A DNA stretch of 64,000 bases from Ferrithrix thermotolerans DSM 19514. Lineage in GTDB: Bacteria > Actinomycetota > Acidimicrobiia > Acidimicrobiales > Acidimicrobiaceae. This document shows, one piece after another, positions 45,819 through 61,677 of the stretch. Made by a program: the position numbers and the translations under genes. The stretch spans positions 62,001 to 126,000 of the forward strand of contig NZ_FQUL01000003.1 of NCBI RefSeq assembly GCF_900128965.1, read 5' to 3'. Below the pieces are notes generated by a model that saw only the letters and a list, made by a program, of their open reading frames with translations, was not told the DNA's origin and searched no databases. Numbering within the stretch: position 1 is the first letter of the stretch; each line of letters begins with the position of its first letter.

Positions 45819-46364
45819 GGTCAAGCTAGCGCATTAAGTTCTAGAAGCCACCAAGACACACCTAGTGGGTCAATTCGAACTAGTGTCCACGCGGGATGAT
45901 ATGAAGTTAGCGAATCAGATTCCATCGACAGATTCGACTGTAAAGACATATCTTGCCTTACGCGAGAGTTGGAATTTCACCTGTCATGGTTGGATGCAAG
46001 GTCTTTTTGAAGTGAAGAGTTATCCGTGTTAACCGGTCCGCATTGGTCTGACTGTTTTATTAGCTTGATTAACAGTTATTTGCGTCGATGGATGGGTGTT
46101 CGTTAGCGAGACGTCTGAGCTGTCTAAGTAGAGTCAGAGGTTGAGACTTGTTTGTTCGTGCTAATACCGACTCCGCAGACAACGAAACTTTTTTGTCGAC
46201 TAAAGGCGTGTCTACTTGAGATATCGTTGCAAAGTTGGACTACTAGGTAGATAGATGAGAGCTACGATATTGTCCTGTGCGACAAGAACACTGACCCAAG
46301 ACTAGGCAGACCTCGGGAGAGAGGGACCATAGAGTTGGAAGTTTAGCTATGAACATTTGTCAAG
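45819..46364 (+). other. Gene-free stretch after mdh
   Basis: About 545 nt between convergent mdh and a minus-strand hypothetical gene. Stops are frequent in all frames and no repeat, tRNA, insertion-sequence end or strong terminator hairpin was recognised. It may be a worn-out gene or simply unconstrained DNA. Confidence 0.6.
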
Positions 46365-46616
46365 CTACAGCGAGATCGACGATCTACTTCGGAGACACTC
46401 TTTCCACTCGGGTCCCAGGAGCGCAAACCCACACTTCTCCAGATACTGCAACTTAGCCTCGATGCAGCTTCTCCAAAGTTTAAGATCCGCTTGAAACTGC
46501 TCTCGGTCACCTTCTTCGTAGGCGTGCTCGACTGCGTTGAACGCTGAGTCTTCAGCGTCTAGGAGCCCTCTGTAGTGTTCAAGGATGTGGTCATCAATTA
46601 CACCGGCATTGCTCAT
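46365..46616 (-). CDS. Small hypothetical protein downstream of the sdh group
   Basis: The 83-residue acidic, alpha-helical protein has a VIDDHILEHYRGLLDAED start and ends with RSRSSISL. The ATG at 46616 has GGGGG 7 nt upstream; a longer frame to 46694 overlaps the preceding gene and is less likely. No family is recognised. It is the last gene of the minus-strand run sdhA-sdhB-SCP2-like-DUF2510. Confidence 0.6.
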   Translation of the reverse strand: MSNAGVIDDHILEHYRGLLDAEDSAFNAVEHAYEEGDREQFQADLKLWRSCIEAKLQYLEKCGFALLGPEWKECLRSRSSISL

Positions 46617-55982: not shown

Positions 55983-56432
55983 ATGGTAGATTCAAGCAAG
56001 ATCTGGGTTTCCCTGCAAGACGATGAGATATCGGTGGGAAAGCTCTACGAGTTTTGTCTCGACTCGTCATGTGGAGCTGTGGTACTGTTCTCGGGAATCG
56101 TGCGAGACTTTTCTGAAGGAAGAATTAATGTGACCGCCCTGACCTACGAGGCGTTTGAGTCTCTTGCGGTCAAGAAACTTGAAGAAATAGCCGAGAATGT
56201 ATTTGAGTTGTATCAAGGGGTGAGAAGAGTCGCAATTGTACATAGATTAGGGAAGCTGGATCTTTCGGAATCCTCGGTAGTGGTAGCCGTGGGTTCGGAA
56301 CACAGGGACGAAGCGTTTCTAGGAGCCAAGTACGCCATTGACTCCCTAAAGGTGAAAGCTCCAATCTGGAAGAAGGAGACTTGGTCAGGTGGAGAAGACT
56401 GGTCTAGTGTAGCGACGACGATTATCGATTAG
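55983..56432 (+). CDS. moaE: Molybdopterin synthase catalytic subunit MoaE
   Basis: MoaE transfers sulfur with MoaD to make molybdopterin. The 149-residue protein has GAVVLFSGIVRDFSEGR, LTYEAFESLAVKKLEEI, VAIVHRLGKLDLSESSVVVAVGSEHR and the C-terminal KAPIWKKETWSGGEDW with the active-site lysines. No moaD or other moa gene is adjacent, so the operon is split in this genome. Confidence 0.94.
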   Translation: MVDSSKIWVSLQDDEISVGKLYEFCLDSSCGAVVLFSGIVRDFSEGRINVTALTYEAFESLAVKKLEEIAENVFELYQGVRRVAIVHRLGKLDLSESSVVVAVGSEHRDEAFLGAKYAIDSLKVKAPIWKKETWSGGEDWSSVATTIID

Positions 56433-56469
56433 CGAAGTCATAGAATGCACTTTAGAAGGGGTGTTTGGG

Positions 56470-56652
56470 GTGAGTGTATTACTGTACATAGTTGTTCCTG
56501 TGGCCGCTGCTATTGTAGCAGGCCTAGTGTTTAGCTTGCGTGATCGGAAACCCAAGTCTTTCGAGTCGGGAATTCAAGACTTTGCAAAGACGATTCAGGC
56601 GCTGTCTCACTCAGCCGAAAGTGTGCGGGGATCTAGCCGCAACGAGGGTTGA
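56470..56652 (+). CDS. Small single-span membrane protein
   Basis: One N-terminal hydrophobic helix (VLLYIVVPVAAAIVAGLVFSL) is followed by a short charged tail with SFESGIQDFAKTIQALSHSAES. The GTG at 56470 lies about 9 nt after GAAGGGG; a GTG at 56461 is the alternative. About 60 residues. It stops one base before the GTG of the MreB-like gene, so the two are probably coupled. Small proteins of this kind with an S/F-x-ALSP-type tail occur in actinobacteria; the role is unknown. Confidence 0.6.
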   Translation: MSVLLYIVVPVAAAIVAGLVFSLRDRKPKSFESGIQDFAKTIQALSHSAESVRGSSRNEG

Positions 56653-56653
56653 G

Positions 56654-57652
56654 GTGGACCTGGTTTGTGCTATCGATGTAGGGGCCAGCAAGACTAGAGT
56701 AGCTTTACAAGGCAAGGGTCTAATCTACGACTCTTGGTCTGTTGTTGCCGTTGATGCAGGTAGTAGCTCGATTAGAGCCTGTGGTGAAGCCGCTTACGAC
56801 CTGGTAAGGAGAAGTGGTGGTCGTCATGTGATCAAGGCACCCTTTGGGCATGGTATGACGGCAGACCCGGAGGCCGTAGCACCTTATGTTCGAACCCTCT
56901 TCAACCAGATAGGCTTGCCCTCGCCCTCGAAGTTTCGTATAGGAGTAGCGACTCCCTCCCAGATGACGCCTCTTGAGACCGAGGTCTTAGCTGGGTGCTT
57001 ACGAGAGATTGGATCAAAAGCCGTCGTCCTCGTGCCATCGCTCATGGCGGGATCGCTCGTAGGTGGTATGGACGGCTCTAAAGCGGACGGATTTATGACC
57101 GTGATCGCCGGTGCTGCACGAAGTGAGGCTGCGGTGTTTTCTCTTGGGCAGATGACTGCAGTGACCTCCACAAATGCTGGCGGCGTGAAGGTGTCTCGTC
57201 GTATTTCTAAGGCGATCCTGGATAACTTTGGACTTCTTGTCTCTCCGGACACTGTTGAGCAGGTTAAAGAGCATCTAATATCCCTTGGGCGGCGCGACAA
57301 GGTAAGAGTTGCGGATCTGTGGGGTAGAGATTCCAAGACAGGTGAGACTCGGCAGGTTCGCGTGGAGGATTCACTGTTTATAGATGAGGTTCTACCCATC
57401 TTCAAAGAGATAGCCTCTCTGCCCTCCTTGGTATTTTCAAAGTGTGAGGCTGAGTTGGTGGCCGACATAAGTTACCAGGGGTTGACCTTCATTGGGGGTC
57501 TTTCGGTTGTCCAAGGACTAAAGGAAATGCTCTCATACTCATCAAAGGTCGATGTTATTGTCTTGTCAAGACCCAGCTCTGCGGTAGTTGAGGGTGTACT
57601 TTCGCTCATGACAGGGAGTTCAAAGGTTACTAGGGCTGTATCTCTATCGTAG
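56654..57652 (+). CDS. Divergent MreB-like actin-fold protein
   Basis: The 332-residue product aligns with MreB over its length: phosphate-1 loop AIDVGASKTRVAL, then KGLIYDSWSVVAVD, PFGHGMTADPEAVAPYV, and an adenosine-site-like GLTFIGGLSVVQGLKEM. The phosphate-2 motif DIGGGTTE reads IAGAARSE (residues 151-158). The catalytic EEPMA reads PSLMA (128-132), so ATP hydrolysis is probably lost. MreB polymers guide wall growth. This copy, next to a small membrane protein and away from mreC/mreD, may be a structural or regulatory paralogue. Confidence 0.75.
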   Translation: MDLVCAIDVGASKTRVALQGKGLIYDSWSVVAVDAGSSSIRACGEAAYDLVRRSGGRHVIKAPFGHGMTADPEAVAPYVRTLFNQIGLPSPSKFRIGVATPSQMTPLETEVLAGCLREIGSKAVVLVPSLMAGSLVGGMDGSKADGFMTVIAGAARSEAAVFSLGQMTAVTSTNAGGVKVSRRISKAILDNFGLLVSPDTVEQVKEHLISLGRRDKVRVADLWGRDSKTGETRQVRVEDSLFIDEVLPIFKEIASLPSLVFSKCEAELVADISYQGLTFIGGLSVVQGLKEMLSYSSKVDVIVLSRPSSAVVEGVLSLMTGSSKVTRAVSLS

Positions 57653-58270
57653 GAGATCTTCAGCGATTGCTCTAACTTGGAAGTCTCGGTCTTTACACGC
57701 GTGACGTAGGGCCTCTTCGACATCAGGACCCTCGAAGTTCGAGAGAGCGACTACTGCACGCCTGCGTATATAGACCTTGTCCGAAAGCGCTTCAAGGATG
57801 GTCGTAAGCGAAGAAGGGTCACCTAAGCTTCCCAGCGCTGCAATGGCAGACTCCCGTACACTGTCGTACTTAGAGCCTTGGGCGAGTTCTTGTAGTCGAG
57901 ATATGAAGGATAGATCTTTGATCTCGCCGATCGTGAAACAAGCTGCCTCAAGAGGGCGTTCGTAGTTATCTTGCTCTACGAGTACAGCTAGGACCGATCT
58001 GTATCTACCGGCGTAGGTAAGTGCAACTTCGGTAACCAAGGTGGTCTTGGATAGATCTTCGACTAGTTCAGCTACCTCATGTTCTGTTAGTGGGAACGAC
58101 ATGTTCCATAGGCCTCTAACTGCTAGAGCCGCAGTCAGCTCAAAGTCGTGTTTTGTGGCAAGTCCCTTTCTTAGATGTCTGCGCAGTTCGGCTGAGTCCC
58201 GCTTTAGAGAACTCCTTGCTAGGTTAAAAAGTGAGTTGGGATCAAAGCCGTTAGTTTGGGGTTCTTGCAT
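57644..58270 (-). CDS. HEAT-repeat protein
   Basis: The 208-residue protein has several ~30-residue HEAT-like helical pairs, clearest in VRESAIAALGSLGDPSSLTTIL and RRRAVVALSNFEGPDVEEAL. Such repeats form curved scaffolds for protein binding; no catalytic motif is seen. It converges on the MreB-like gene and overlaps its 3' end by 9 nt. It is divergent from the PDZ-Lon gene. Confidence 0.75.
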   Translation of the reverse strand: MQEPQTNGFDPNSLFNLARSSLKRDSAELRRHLRKGLATKHDFELTAALAVRGLWNMSFPLTEHEVAELVEDLSKTTLVTEVALTYAGRYRSVLAVLVEQDNYERPLEAACFTIGEIKDLSFISRLQELAQGSKYDSVRESAIAALGSLGDPSSLTTILEALSDKVYIRRRAVVALSNFEGPDVEEALRHACKDRDFQVRAIAEDLLR

Positions 58271-59370: not shown

Positions 59371-61677
59371 ATGCGCGGTATTAGAGAGGGTGAGGGAGTT
59401 GTGAACGGTGGATCCGAGACTACGCCAAGATTCCCCATTGTTCGTAAGGGGCTGGATCAGAGGGAGGTCTACCCTTATCTCGAGCGTCTAAAGCTTAGGA
59501 TAGAGGAGCTAGAGCGGGACAACCAGCGCTTGCAGGGGGAGTTGGAAGAACTAAGACGACAGGTTGAGAACCCAGAACTTGACATCGATAGAGTTACAGA
59601 GATCTTTGGTAAGCAAGCCTCCGAGATCTTGCGAAGCGCACATGACATCTCCTCGTCGATAAGAAAGCGTGCTGAGCTGAACGCTAAAGACATTATTTCG
59701 AAGGCTGAAAGGCAGGCTACTGATCTAGAACTCCAAGCATCAGTTGCTGCCGAGGCTCAGATGACGGAGGCTGCAGAACGAGCCAGAGAAATTGTGGACA
59801 GGGCCAAGGCAGAGGCTACCGAGATCATTGCGCTAGCTGAACAGGGAGCTCAGAGTATCTCGGAACGTGCAAAGGCGGAAGGTCGATCACTTCTTCATAG
59901 GGCTCGGGAACTTCGTAGCAAGGTATTCAATGAGATGCAGAGCAGAATTGAACTCCTCAATAGCGATATTGAGGAGTTGGAAACCTCACGGACCACGCTT
60001 TTGCAGATGCTTAGCGCCGCAGAGACCGTCCTCTCTGAAGTGAAAAGAGACATAGTTGGCAGATCAGTCGTGTCAGACGTTCTGGAGACACAGGGTGTTG
60101 AAGACGAACTCGAAGGCAATGTTCTAGTCGCCGAAGATCTGAGCCTCGCACACGAGGAAAACTTGCTTACCCCCCTTTATGAGGAGGGAGACACCTTAGG
60201 AGCTAGCGACCACGAAGATCTGCCAACTGAACATCGCCTAGGTGACCTCTTATCTAGAGGTAGGGGTTCCGATCTCGATGACCAGAGCGAAGACTCTGCT
60301 CGAAATGAAGCTGCAGGCGAGGTCACCAAAGATTCCGATACTTTGCAGTCGGAGGCGAAAGGTTTCGTAGAAGAAAACCGTGTTGCGGGCGAGTTGCACA
60401 CAGAAGATCTGTATGAAGGTGTGATCTCGATAAGGCCCATCCCAACCTCAGCTGAAGTTCTAGGTGATAGCAGTTTTGACAGCGAGCCTTTGGACGATGA
60501 GAGCCTCGTAGATGACTTTGATGATAAAAGTTTTCCCGTGGACGTAGAGGCTGCGGCCACGGTATGTTTCGATGATCAAGTTCTCGAGACGGAGGTGCAC
60601 GGAAGTGATGAGACCTCTGTCGCTGGTGACCCATCTTGGGGAATCGATGAGGAAAAAACAGAGGTGTTTGCCGCATTGTCGACGGGGGAAACAGATCCGC
60701 AAGATGTGGATGATGAAACAGACGAACCTTTGAAATATAGGGAAACCATTGCTCATAGTTCGCATGCGAACGACTCTCACGAACCTGAGGAAGCAGTCGA
60801 AGAATCCTTGCAGCTAGATCTCCTTGAGAAGCTTTTTGAGCGACTAAGAGAGGGAAGATCTCAAGAAGTGCAAGTTGCGTCGCAAACAGTGGACGTTGCG
60901 GTGAAAGATAGCCTAGATCTAAAAGATCAAACGACTTCAGAGCCTGCTTTAGGAGTTGATCTCATAAGCGAGACCAGGCACGAAACAAGCGTTCAGTCTG
61001 ACACCAGCGTTCCAGACTACTCCGAGATGCTCAATCGACGCGAGGAGGCGCTCTCTGAGCCTTCACTACAGATGTCTAGACGCGTAAAGAGATTGCTTCA
61101 AGACGATCAGAATGAGCTGCTTGACGTACTAAGAAAGTCTGGGGTAGATGGGCTTCTGAAGAGGCTAAATGAGCTTTTGACTAAATTTCATAGTCACTCT
61201 ATGGAGATCTATGAGTACCTGGAGCGTTCTAGGAGCGAGGGGCTTAGGCTTTTCGTCGACCAAGGAGTTGAAGTGGAGTTAGATGTAGCGGAGCTGATGC
61301 AAGTTGCCGAGGACGTCTGCTCTTTGATTGCTGAACTTTCACTCAAGAGAGTTATGGCGATCTACTCCTCCATCGAAAGCGGGGAGGGGCAAGATCAAGT
61401 AGCGCTTATCAACTCAATCTACAGGGACTTGCGCGTGCAGAAGGTAGACGAGATCGTGGGTGACTATGTAAACTCTGCCTTTAACCTTGGGGTCCGTAAC
61501 GTTCCAGGACTCTCGTCGCTGAACTGGGTAACCTTCGATCTTGGCGGGAACTGTTCAGACTGTGATGACAACACACTGGCAAATCCAAATCCAAAAGATG
61601 AAGATTTCCCAACAGGTCATAAGGTTCCACCCGTGCATCCGGGCTGTCGATGTCTGATTGTCCCAACTATCGCCTAG
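59371..61677 (+). CDS. Large coiled-coil protein with a phage Mu F-like C-terminal motif
   Basis: The 768-residue product starts with a DivIVA-like coiled coil (residues about 35-240: LERLKLRIEELERDNQRL and long heptads of A/E/R). A long acidic, probably disordered stretch follows (about 240-560). A helical C-terminus ends with C728xxC731 and GHKVPPVHPGCRCLI (H756, C759, C761). The last motif resembles the CxxC...HPxCRC end of Mu gpF / SPP1 gp7 minor head proteins. GTG at 59401 behind GAGGGAG may be the true start. No phage gene is nearby. Confidence 0.7.
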   Translation: MRGIREGEGVVNGGSETTPRFPIVRKGLDQREVYPYLERLKLRIEELERDNQRLQGELEELRRQVENPELDIDRVTEIFGKQASEILRSAHDISSSIRKRAELNAKDIISKAERQATDLELQASVAAEAQMTEAAERAREIVDRAKAEATEIIALAEQGAQSISERAKAEGRSLLHRARELRSKVFNEMQSRIELLNSDIEELETSRTTLLQMLSAAETVLSEVKRDIVGRSVVSDVLETQGVEDELEGNVLVAEDLSLAHEENLLTPLYEEGDTLGASDHEDLPTEHRLGDLLSRGRGSDLDDQSEDSARNEAAGEVTKDSDTLQSEAKGFVEENRVAGELHTEDLYEGVISIRPIPTSAEVLGDSSFDSEPLDDESLVDDFDDKSFPVDVEAAATVCFDDQVLETEVHGSDETSVAGDPSWGIDEEKTEVFAALSTGETDPQDVDDETDEPLKYRETIAHSSHANDSHEPEEAVEESLQLDLLEKLFERLREGRSQEVQVASQTVDVAVKDSLDLKDQTTSEPALGVDLISETRHETSVQSDTSVPDYSEMLNRREEALSEPSLQMSRRVKRLLQDDQNELLDVLRKSGVDGLLKRLNELLTKFHSHSMEIYEYLERSRSEGLRLFVDQGVEVELDVAELMQVAEDVCSLIAELSLKRVMAIYSSIESGEGQDQVALINSIYRDLRVQKVDEIVGDYVNSAFNLGVRNVPGLSSLNWVTFDLGGNCSDCDDNTLANPNPKDEDFPTGHKVPPVHPGCRCLIVPTIA

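Follow-up and report, generated by a model that had tools for sequence, protein, structure and literature searches.

RodZ is a one-span membrane protein that serves as an anchor and adaptor of the actin-like protein MreB and couples it to the envelope. The role of ATP hydrolysis for MreB is still debated (PMC10718530, PMC9195046). Excerpts of the former paper state that MreB does not strictly need hydrolysis to form filaments, and that hydrolysis promotes its binding to the membrane; excerpts of the latter state that changing the catalytic glutamate of Spiroplasma MreB5 alters membrane binding. The roles of E140 (PMC4051119, PMC9597168) and of T167 and E169 (PMC9597168, PMC4051119) in CcMreB are likewise described in passages of these two papers. 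An MreB that naturally lacks the E...T-X-[D/E] motif is found in Spiroplasma MreB3, which, according to an excerpt, is still able to assemble into filaments and has been proposed to give other filaments a stable attachment to the membrane (PMC9597168). In S. coelicolor, Mbl acts with MreB in spore wall synthesis, as stated in an excerpt of PMC4255298.

We analyzed a stretch of 64,000 nucleotides from Ferrithrix thermotolerans DSM 19514 (the window), for which an earlier reading made from the letters alone (the sequence-only reading) had proposed an MreB-like protein of 332 aa at 56654-57652, coupled to a one-span membrane peptide. This open reading frame was present, and we refer to the gene as mreB2 and to its product as MreB2. 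The features of the locus are as follows.

55983..56432, + strand: moaE, molybdopterin synthase large subunit (Pfam MoaE, E 2.4e-33); upstream in 39/39 family loci
56461..56652, + strand: one-span membrane microprotein, 63 aa (profile matches); a single base separates its end from the mreB2 start codon
56557..56631, + strand: juxtamembrane helix of the microprotein, with S-x-x-x-x-F-x-R/K-x-x-x-A-L; AlphaFold2 helix of low to medium confidence
56654..57652, + strand: mreB2, MreB-fold paralogue with a degenerate site, 332 aa, GTG start (PF06723, AlphaFold2 model, Z score to 2wus_A, syntenic orthologues)
57644..58270, - strand: HEAT-repeat protein, conserved downstream neighbour; adjoins mreB2 in 36/39 family loci

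In-frame GTG/TTG codons further upstream are possible alternative starts of mreB2. The product is an MreB by fold and sequence, as judged from the Pfam match, the AlphaFold2 model and the Foldseek and VIA-align rankings. The Pfam profile PF06723 (MreB_Mbl) matched residues 6-321 with an E-value of 7.4e-51 and 173.4 bits (cut-off, 27), in agreement with the MreB-like nature that had been proposed; the NCBIfam MreB models were not reached (119.6 vs. 365.75 bits for TIGR00904, and 143.4 vs. 293 bits for NF010539). The AlphaFold2 model, computed from ten sequences taken from the window and related loci, was a full-length fold with a mean pLDDT of 90.6 and a pTM of 0.88. When this model was used in Foldseek, the first 25 entries were MreB or Mbl, and in VIA-align 2 the best PDB match was T. 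maritima MreB (2wus_A; Z 37.6, 2.4 A over 329 residues). The top 23 rows of the latter search were all MreB/Mbl, with Z scores of 32.5-37.6, and actins came lower, at about 30. The top PDB match by sequence was SpeMreB3 (7e1c_A, E 5e-28). A different fold was looked for by structure prediction and PDB fold search and was not found. FtsA, DnaK or another fold was ruled out, because MreBs led the fold searches by a wide margin and the FtsA profile gave 22 bits, below its curated cut-off of 31.8. The retained actin fold is that of MreB and not that of FtsA or DnaK.

Some other open frames gave related matches. On contig C44 of genome G000 (46026-46418; loci L004 and L218), a 593-aa open frame showed weak matches to FtsA (E 1.4e-8) and MreB (E 1.7e-4), and no FtsA-family match was found in that genome besides this frame and the canonical MreB. 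In the window itself, positions 59371-61677 (+ strand) encode a protein of 768 aa. Its N-terminus is DivIVA-like (PF05103, E 1e-7), and its C-terminal CxxC...HPGCRC tail is weakly similar to the C-termini of phage head-morphogenesis/maturation proteins (PHROGs, E 0.005-0.013). Relatives, among them L079, L080 and L081, have matches to both ends of this protein.

The F. thermotolerans genome also contains one canonical MreB with intact motifs, adjoining mreC and mreD on another contig. Therefore, the gene at 56654-57652 is a paralogue, and it does lie away from mreC and mreD, as the sequence-only reading had noted. In the order-wide sample, matches to the MreB2 protein were obtained in 59/59 genomes, with at least two matches in 55/59, and in most loci the same slot was seen, consisting of moaE, a one-span microprotein, mreB2, an oppositely oriented HEAT gene, and a gene for a PDZ/Lon-type protease. 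The F. thermotolerans gene sits in the moaE - microprotein - mreB2 slot by which we recognized the orthologue group in Acidimicrobiia. MreB2 and the same microprotein are also present, next to the protease or moaE, in other classes of Actinomycetota; the conserved moaE neighbour is probably not functionally linked to mreB2. An orphan or laterally acquired gene was ruled out by the order-wide synteny, and we concluded that the gene is the Acidimicrobiaceae form of MreB2, a widespread second MreB paralogue. The family set analyzed below comprises 39 Acidimicrobiaceae mreB2 copies from 38/42 genomes. The genomes without a usable copy were G070 (a fragmentary copy, left unused), G081 and G094 (canonical MreB only), and G067 (no match), and the nine named records of the family group were all metagenome-assembled. 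Genome G080 had two mreB2 loci (L035 and L071) with full neighbourhoods on different contigs, which may reflect either a gene duplication or an assembly of more than one strain.

The residues of the nucleotide site in F. thermotolerans MreB2 are the following.

56675..56683, + strand: Asp8-Val-Gly10, remnant of phosphate-1; Asp and Gly kept in 39/39 of the family, the next residues changed from Thr to Ala and from Asn to Lys
57035..57049, + strand: PSLMA (residues 128-132) replacing EEPMA of connect-1; Ser129 at the catalytic Glu position (CcMreB E140)
57104..57127, + strand: IAGAARSE (residues 151-158) replacing DIGGGTTE of phosphate-2; D162 changed to Ile, T167 to Arg, E169 kept

In CcMreB numbering, MreB2 has Ser for E140, Ile for D162 and Arg for T167 and retains E169; the hydrolytic E...T-X-[D/E] motif and the phosphate-2 Asp are absent. 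Both replacements had been picked out by the sequence-only reading. Their alignment is unambiguous, because the AVFSLG that follows matches AVISLG of intact homologues. That reading had asked whether homologues with intact motifs would show its alignment to be wrong. Homologues in the same slot do exist in which the motifs are wholly or partly intact, but they align unambiguously around both motifs and confirmed the alignment, so misalignment was ruled out. The further claim, that both ATPase motifs are lost, holds for the residues of hydrolysis (E140, D162 and T167) but not for the pocket as a whole: the motif alignment showed that Asp8 and Gly10 of phosphate-1, the E-K of AEEIK, and the GG of TGGG are still there. 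Because these residues survive, the nucleotide pocket of MreB2 is not wholly erased.

We compared these positions among distinct sequences of canonical MreB, MreB2 and the family (identical sequences were dropped, nine duplicate loci were left out of the alignment, and the decayed copies L021, L119, L081 and L111 were kept apart from MreB2). The catalytic Glu at E140 was present in 70/70 canonical MreBs, in 21/63 intact MreB2s and in 0/39 members of the family, a loss that is more than chance when set against the 70/70. The phosphate-2 Asp (D162) was found in 70/70, 63/63 and 4/39, and T/S-X-D/E in 70/70, 62/63 and 1/39 of the same three groups, respectively, and the second and third Gly of the phosphate-2 GGG were also lost in the family. 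The phosphate-1 Asp was kept in all groups, with its Gly kept in 39/39 of the family, where the first G of the adenosine GG was kept in 39/39 and the second in 30/39. At the E140 position, Glu or Gln was found in 62/63 intact MreB2s: Glu in 20/24 from other classes, and Gln in 38/39 from Acidimicrobiia. The loss looks stepwise, from Glu to Gln to loss of the whole site, a direction suggested by the distribution among groups and not by a rooted reconstruction. Four strongly diverged MreB2-like copies occurred outside the Acidimicrobiaceae family (L021, L081, L111 and L119, in order genomes G022, G031 and G048); G031 carried two of them besides its canonical MreB.

Trees were built from 24/39 family sequences, 41 MreB2s, 23 canonical MreBs and three Mbl-like sequences. 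The careful tree grouped all 24 family rows in one clade (93/87), which recurred in 91% of the bootstrap trees; its branches were long, and the bootstrap was unsettled. The quick tree, which the careful one supersedes, had placed the family with MreB2 (96*). The canonical MreBs did not form one clade in the careful tree, with two rows on the wrong side. The main grounds for the orthology of MreB2 are synteny and the microprotein that these loci share.

The microprotein has no family name above cut-off in Pfam or NCBIfam. We describe it by a profile of our own, made from 16 peptides that come from the order but from outside the window's family, and searched against 13,155 stop-to-stop ORFs of 215 loci. 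It was found just upstream of mreB2 in 38/39 family loci at E<0.01 (39/39 at E<1) and upstream in 46/67 other MreB2 loci at E<0.01 (16 of these in training), with no match at this threshold at canonical mreB loci (0/74) or Mbl-like loci (0/3). The sole match away from mreB2 among the 13,155 ORFs had an E-value of 0.81, and ten further matches outside the upstream count came from duplicate or named copies, which likewise lie in front of mreB2. The 21/67 non-family MreB2 loci without a microprotein at E<0.01 include the decayed L021, L081, L111 and L119, which adjoin no detectable microprotein; this counts against decay driven by a tether. In whole genomes of the phylum, 56/149 had a match at E<=0.01. 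Among the 23 matches at E<=1e-6, 21 were within about 210 bases upstream of mreB2, the one in G142 was 574 bases upstream, and the one in G153 was on another contig. In the order, 52/59 whole genomes matched at E<=0.01, the weak matches often lying elsewhere. Weak secondary matches were seen inside longer ORFs of about 160-250 aa (e.g., G018:C10:8655-8816 and G053:C9:147782-147925), and we suspect that these are other proteins in which an N-terminal span is followed by a helix. The coupling of the MreB-like protein to a one-span peptide, first noticed in this one sequence, is thus conserved across the order and in other classes.

After the span, the microprotein has a conserved core, S-x-x-x-x-F-x-R/K-x-x-x-A-L, with Phe41 invariant in 18/18 aligned sequences. 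AlphaFold modelled two helices, residues 2-28 and residues 33-57, at a modest mean pLDDT of 69.6. A fusion of microprotein and MreB2 was sought as evidence of linkage in the long N-termini of the MreB2s L027, L162 and L081, and was dropped, since no span was obvious there by eye.

MreB2 is predicted, from start positions that are our own calls, to be without the canonical hydrophobic N-terminal extension. Canonical MreBs have about 15 residues before the phosphate-1 Asp, of which a mean of 3.9, and never zero, are hydrophobic. MreB2 typically starts M-x-R-D-L-A-I-D, with a mean of 0.9 hydrophobic residues in Acidimicrobiia (27/39 assessed) and 0.4 in other classes (24/24); the N-termini of the family were mixed, with a mean of 1.7 (33/39 assessed). 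A start codon at most eight residues from the Asp was found in 25/27 MreB2s of Acidimicrobiia, in 22/24 of other classes and in 19/70 canonical MreBs. Many family members retain a hydrophobic IA loop, the other membrane contact (Phe in 27/39; Pro in F. thermotolerans MreB2), which argues against a complete loss of self-binding.

The open reading frame was intact in every family mreB2 copy taken. With our own Nei-Gojobori script, dN/dS in the six closest within-genus pairs was 0.099, 0.040, 0.044, 0.027, 0.096 and 0.150, values that indicate purifying selection on mreB2 (0.03-0.15). The confident fold and these ratios ruled out a pseudogene. At the same time, mreB2 evolves far faster than canonical mreB (median identity in genus g1, 0.71 vs. 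0.97 for the canonical MreB, MreB1). Two further segments are kept in the family, one in a loop of subdomain IIB and one at the longitudinal filament interface.

57323..57328, + strand: Gly224-Arg225 of the G-R-D-x-x-T-G loop; kept in 39/39 of the family
57452..57466, + strand: ELVAD, longitudinal-interface segment (region of CcMreB S283); Asp271 (of ELxxD) kept in 39/39

The longitudinal interface of CcMreB around S283 is described in an excerpt of PMC4051119. Val118 of the antiparallel dimer helix, which is an inter-protofilament contact, was kept in only 10/39 family members and was Leu in 14, and canonical antiparallel pairing may therefore be weakened.

We propose that MreB2 in Acidimicrobiaceae may be a pseudo-ATPase that keeps the MreB fold and serves as a microprotein-tethered, hydrolysis-independent membrane scaffold, a reading to which we give an even chance. 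The fold, the residue losses, the conserved pairing, the short N-terminus and the purifying selection support it at the sequence level. The cytoplasmic helix of the microprotein would bind MreB2 and hold it at the membrane in trans, and we infer that this binding is physical. Such a tether would replace the self-anchoring that ATP hydrolysis assists in canonical MreB, a proposal made because of what excerpts report on hydrolysis, membrane binding and filaments (PMC10718530, PMC9195046, PMC9597168). Under constant tethering, hydrolysis would become dispensable and cease, with Glu changing first to Gln and the whole site being lost later. MreB2 would then persist at the membrane as a scaffold and, by itself or in mixture with canonical MreB, set the place of envelope synthesis. 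Loss of the motif does not require a microprotein, because Streptomyces-like Mbl lost the same residues without one nearby. The broader form of the proposal, which we hold more tentatively, at somewhat less than an even chance, is a two-part module in Actinomycetota, in which an anchorless MreB paralogue would be paired with a dedicated trans-anchoring microprotein, the Acidimicrobiaceae form being a scaffold without a nucleotide cycle that kept its filament interface.

The surviving parts of the pocket can be read in another way. MreB2 might behave like Spiroplasma MreB3, with an altered pocket that still binds ATP, polymerization upon binding and slow turnover from poor hydrolysis, the microprotein being an accessory. 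The phosphate-1 Asp/Gly (39/39) and the adenosine GG (first G in 39/39, second in 30/39) agree with this, as do the standing of SpeMreB3 (7e1c_A, E 5e-28) as the best PDB sequence match and the formation of filaments with ATP by SpeMreB3, which is without the same E...T-X-[D/E] residues according to an excerpt of PMC9597168. However, the family has also lost the phosphate-2 Asp (35/39) and the last two glycines of GGG, and the two Spiroplasma MreB alignments that we examined retain Asp-x-Gly-Gly-Gly, which makes this reading rather unlikely. These same losses, of D162 and the glycine run, would fit a nucleotide-free adaptor, that is, a non-polymerizing MreB fold that links the microprotein to canonical MreB or to the wall machinery. 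Such an adaptor could also explain why Val118 of the dimerization helix is kept in only 10/39 and why the divergence is high (0.71 vs. 0.97 in g1). The longitudinal-interface Asp and the Gly-Arg of IIB are nevertheless kept in 39/39, and we regard the adaptor as unlikely too. Lastly, high divergence and a lost ATPase site would be seen in a decaying relic without function. This is highly improbable, given frames that are open in every family copy, a dN/dS of 0.03-0.15 in six within-genus pairs, a confident full-length fold, and a microprotein kept alongside in 38/39.

If the tethered-scaffold proposal is true, the link between hydrolysis and membrane attachment becomes directly testable, the elongation machinery of actinobacteria gains a new family of membrane microproteins, and nature offers for study an actin scaffold that is independent of nucleotide. 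MreB2 seems to be a natural experiment, in which an MreB without its own N-terminal anchor has a membrane partner and has lost its hydrolysis residues stepwise across living lineages.

Compared with canonical MreB (CcMreB, TmMreB and GsMreB; PF06723), MreB2 shares the fold (Z 34-38), the phosphate-1 Asp/Gly, ELxxD and the GR loop, but it has lost the catalytic Glu, the phosphate-2 Asp and the Thr, is without the hydrophobic N-terminal extension, and is paired with a microprotein instead of lying beside mreCD. RodZ resembles the microprotein in that both are one-span membrane proteins, whereas the microprotein has 63 aa, an N-terminal span, no helix-turn-helix domain and no Pfam match; a search for RodZ in the F. 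thermotolerans genome gave one borderline HTH_25 match. Like MreB2, Spiroplasma MreB3 is a natural MreB paralogue without the E...T-X-[D/E] motif; in contrast to MreB2, it is one of five MreBs in a wall-less host, SpeMreB3 retains D-x-GGG, and the excerpts of PMC9597168 mention no microprotein partner.

Three actinobacterial loci (L208-L210) encode a second MreB that we would identify as Streptomyces-type Mbl. Like MreB2, these have lost E140, D162 and T-X-E (3/3); unlike it, they have no moaE, HEAT, YlbL or microprotein nearby, keep a 15-residue N-terminus, and fall outside the Acidimicrobiaceae family clade in the trees. Two of these genomes also have a third, internally deleted MreB-like ORF, as in SCO6166, and the putative Streptomyces label draws in part on this. 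Should L208-L210 be Mbl, then an MreB that has already been studied by genetics may be a pseudo-ATPase too. The MreB2s of other Acidimicrobiia and actinobacterial classes have the same slot and/or the same microprotein and the short N-terminus, but differ from the family in an intact phosphate-2 Asp (63/63) and Glu/Gln at E140 (62/63).

A search of open-licence PMC literature by title and start of the abstract, a scope largely outside subscription papers, did not find the microprotein-MreB2 module. Of the unusual cytoskeletal module envisaged by the sequence-only reading, the order-wide conserved coupling to a microprotein stands, whereas the MreB itself turns out to be the lineage-specific form of a widespread MreB2. 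Because ATPase-poor MreBs are already known, in Spiroplasma MreB3 and the Streptomyces-like Mbl of L208-L210, MreB2 itself is a variant of something known, and the new part is the microprotein conserved with it.
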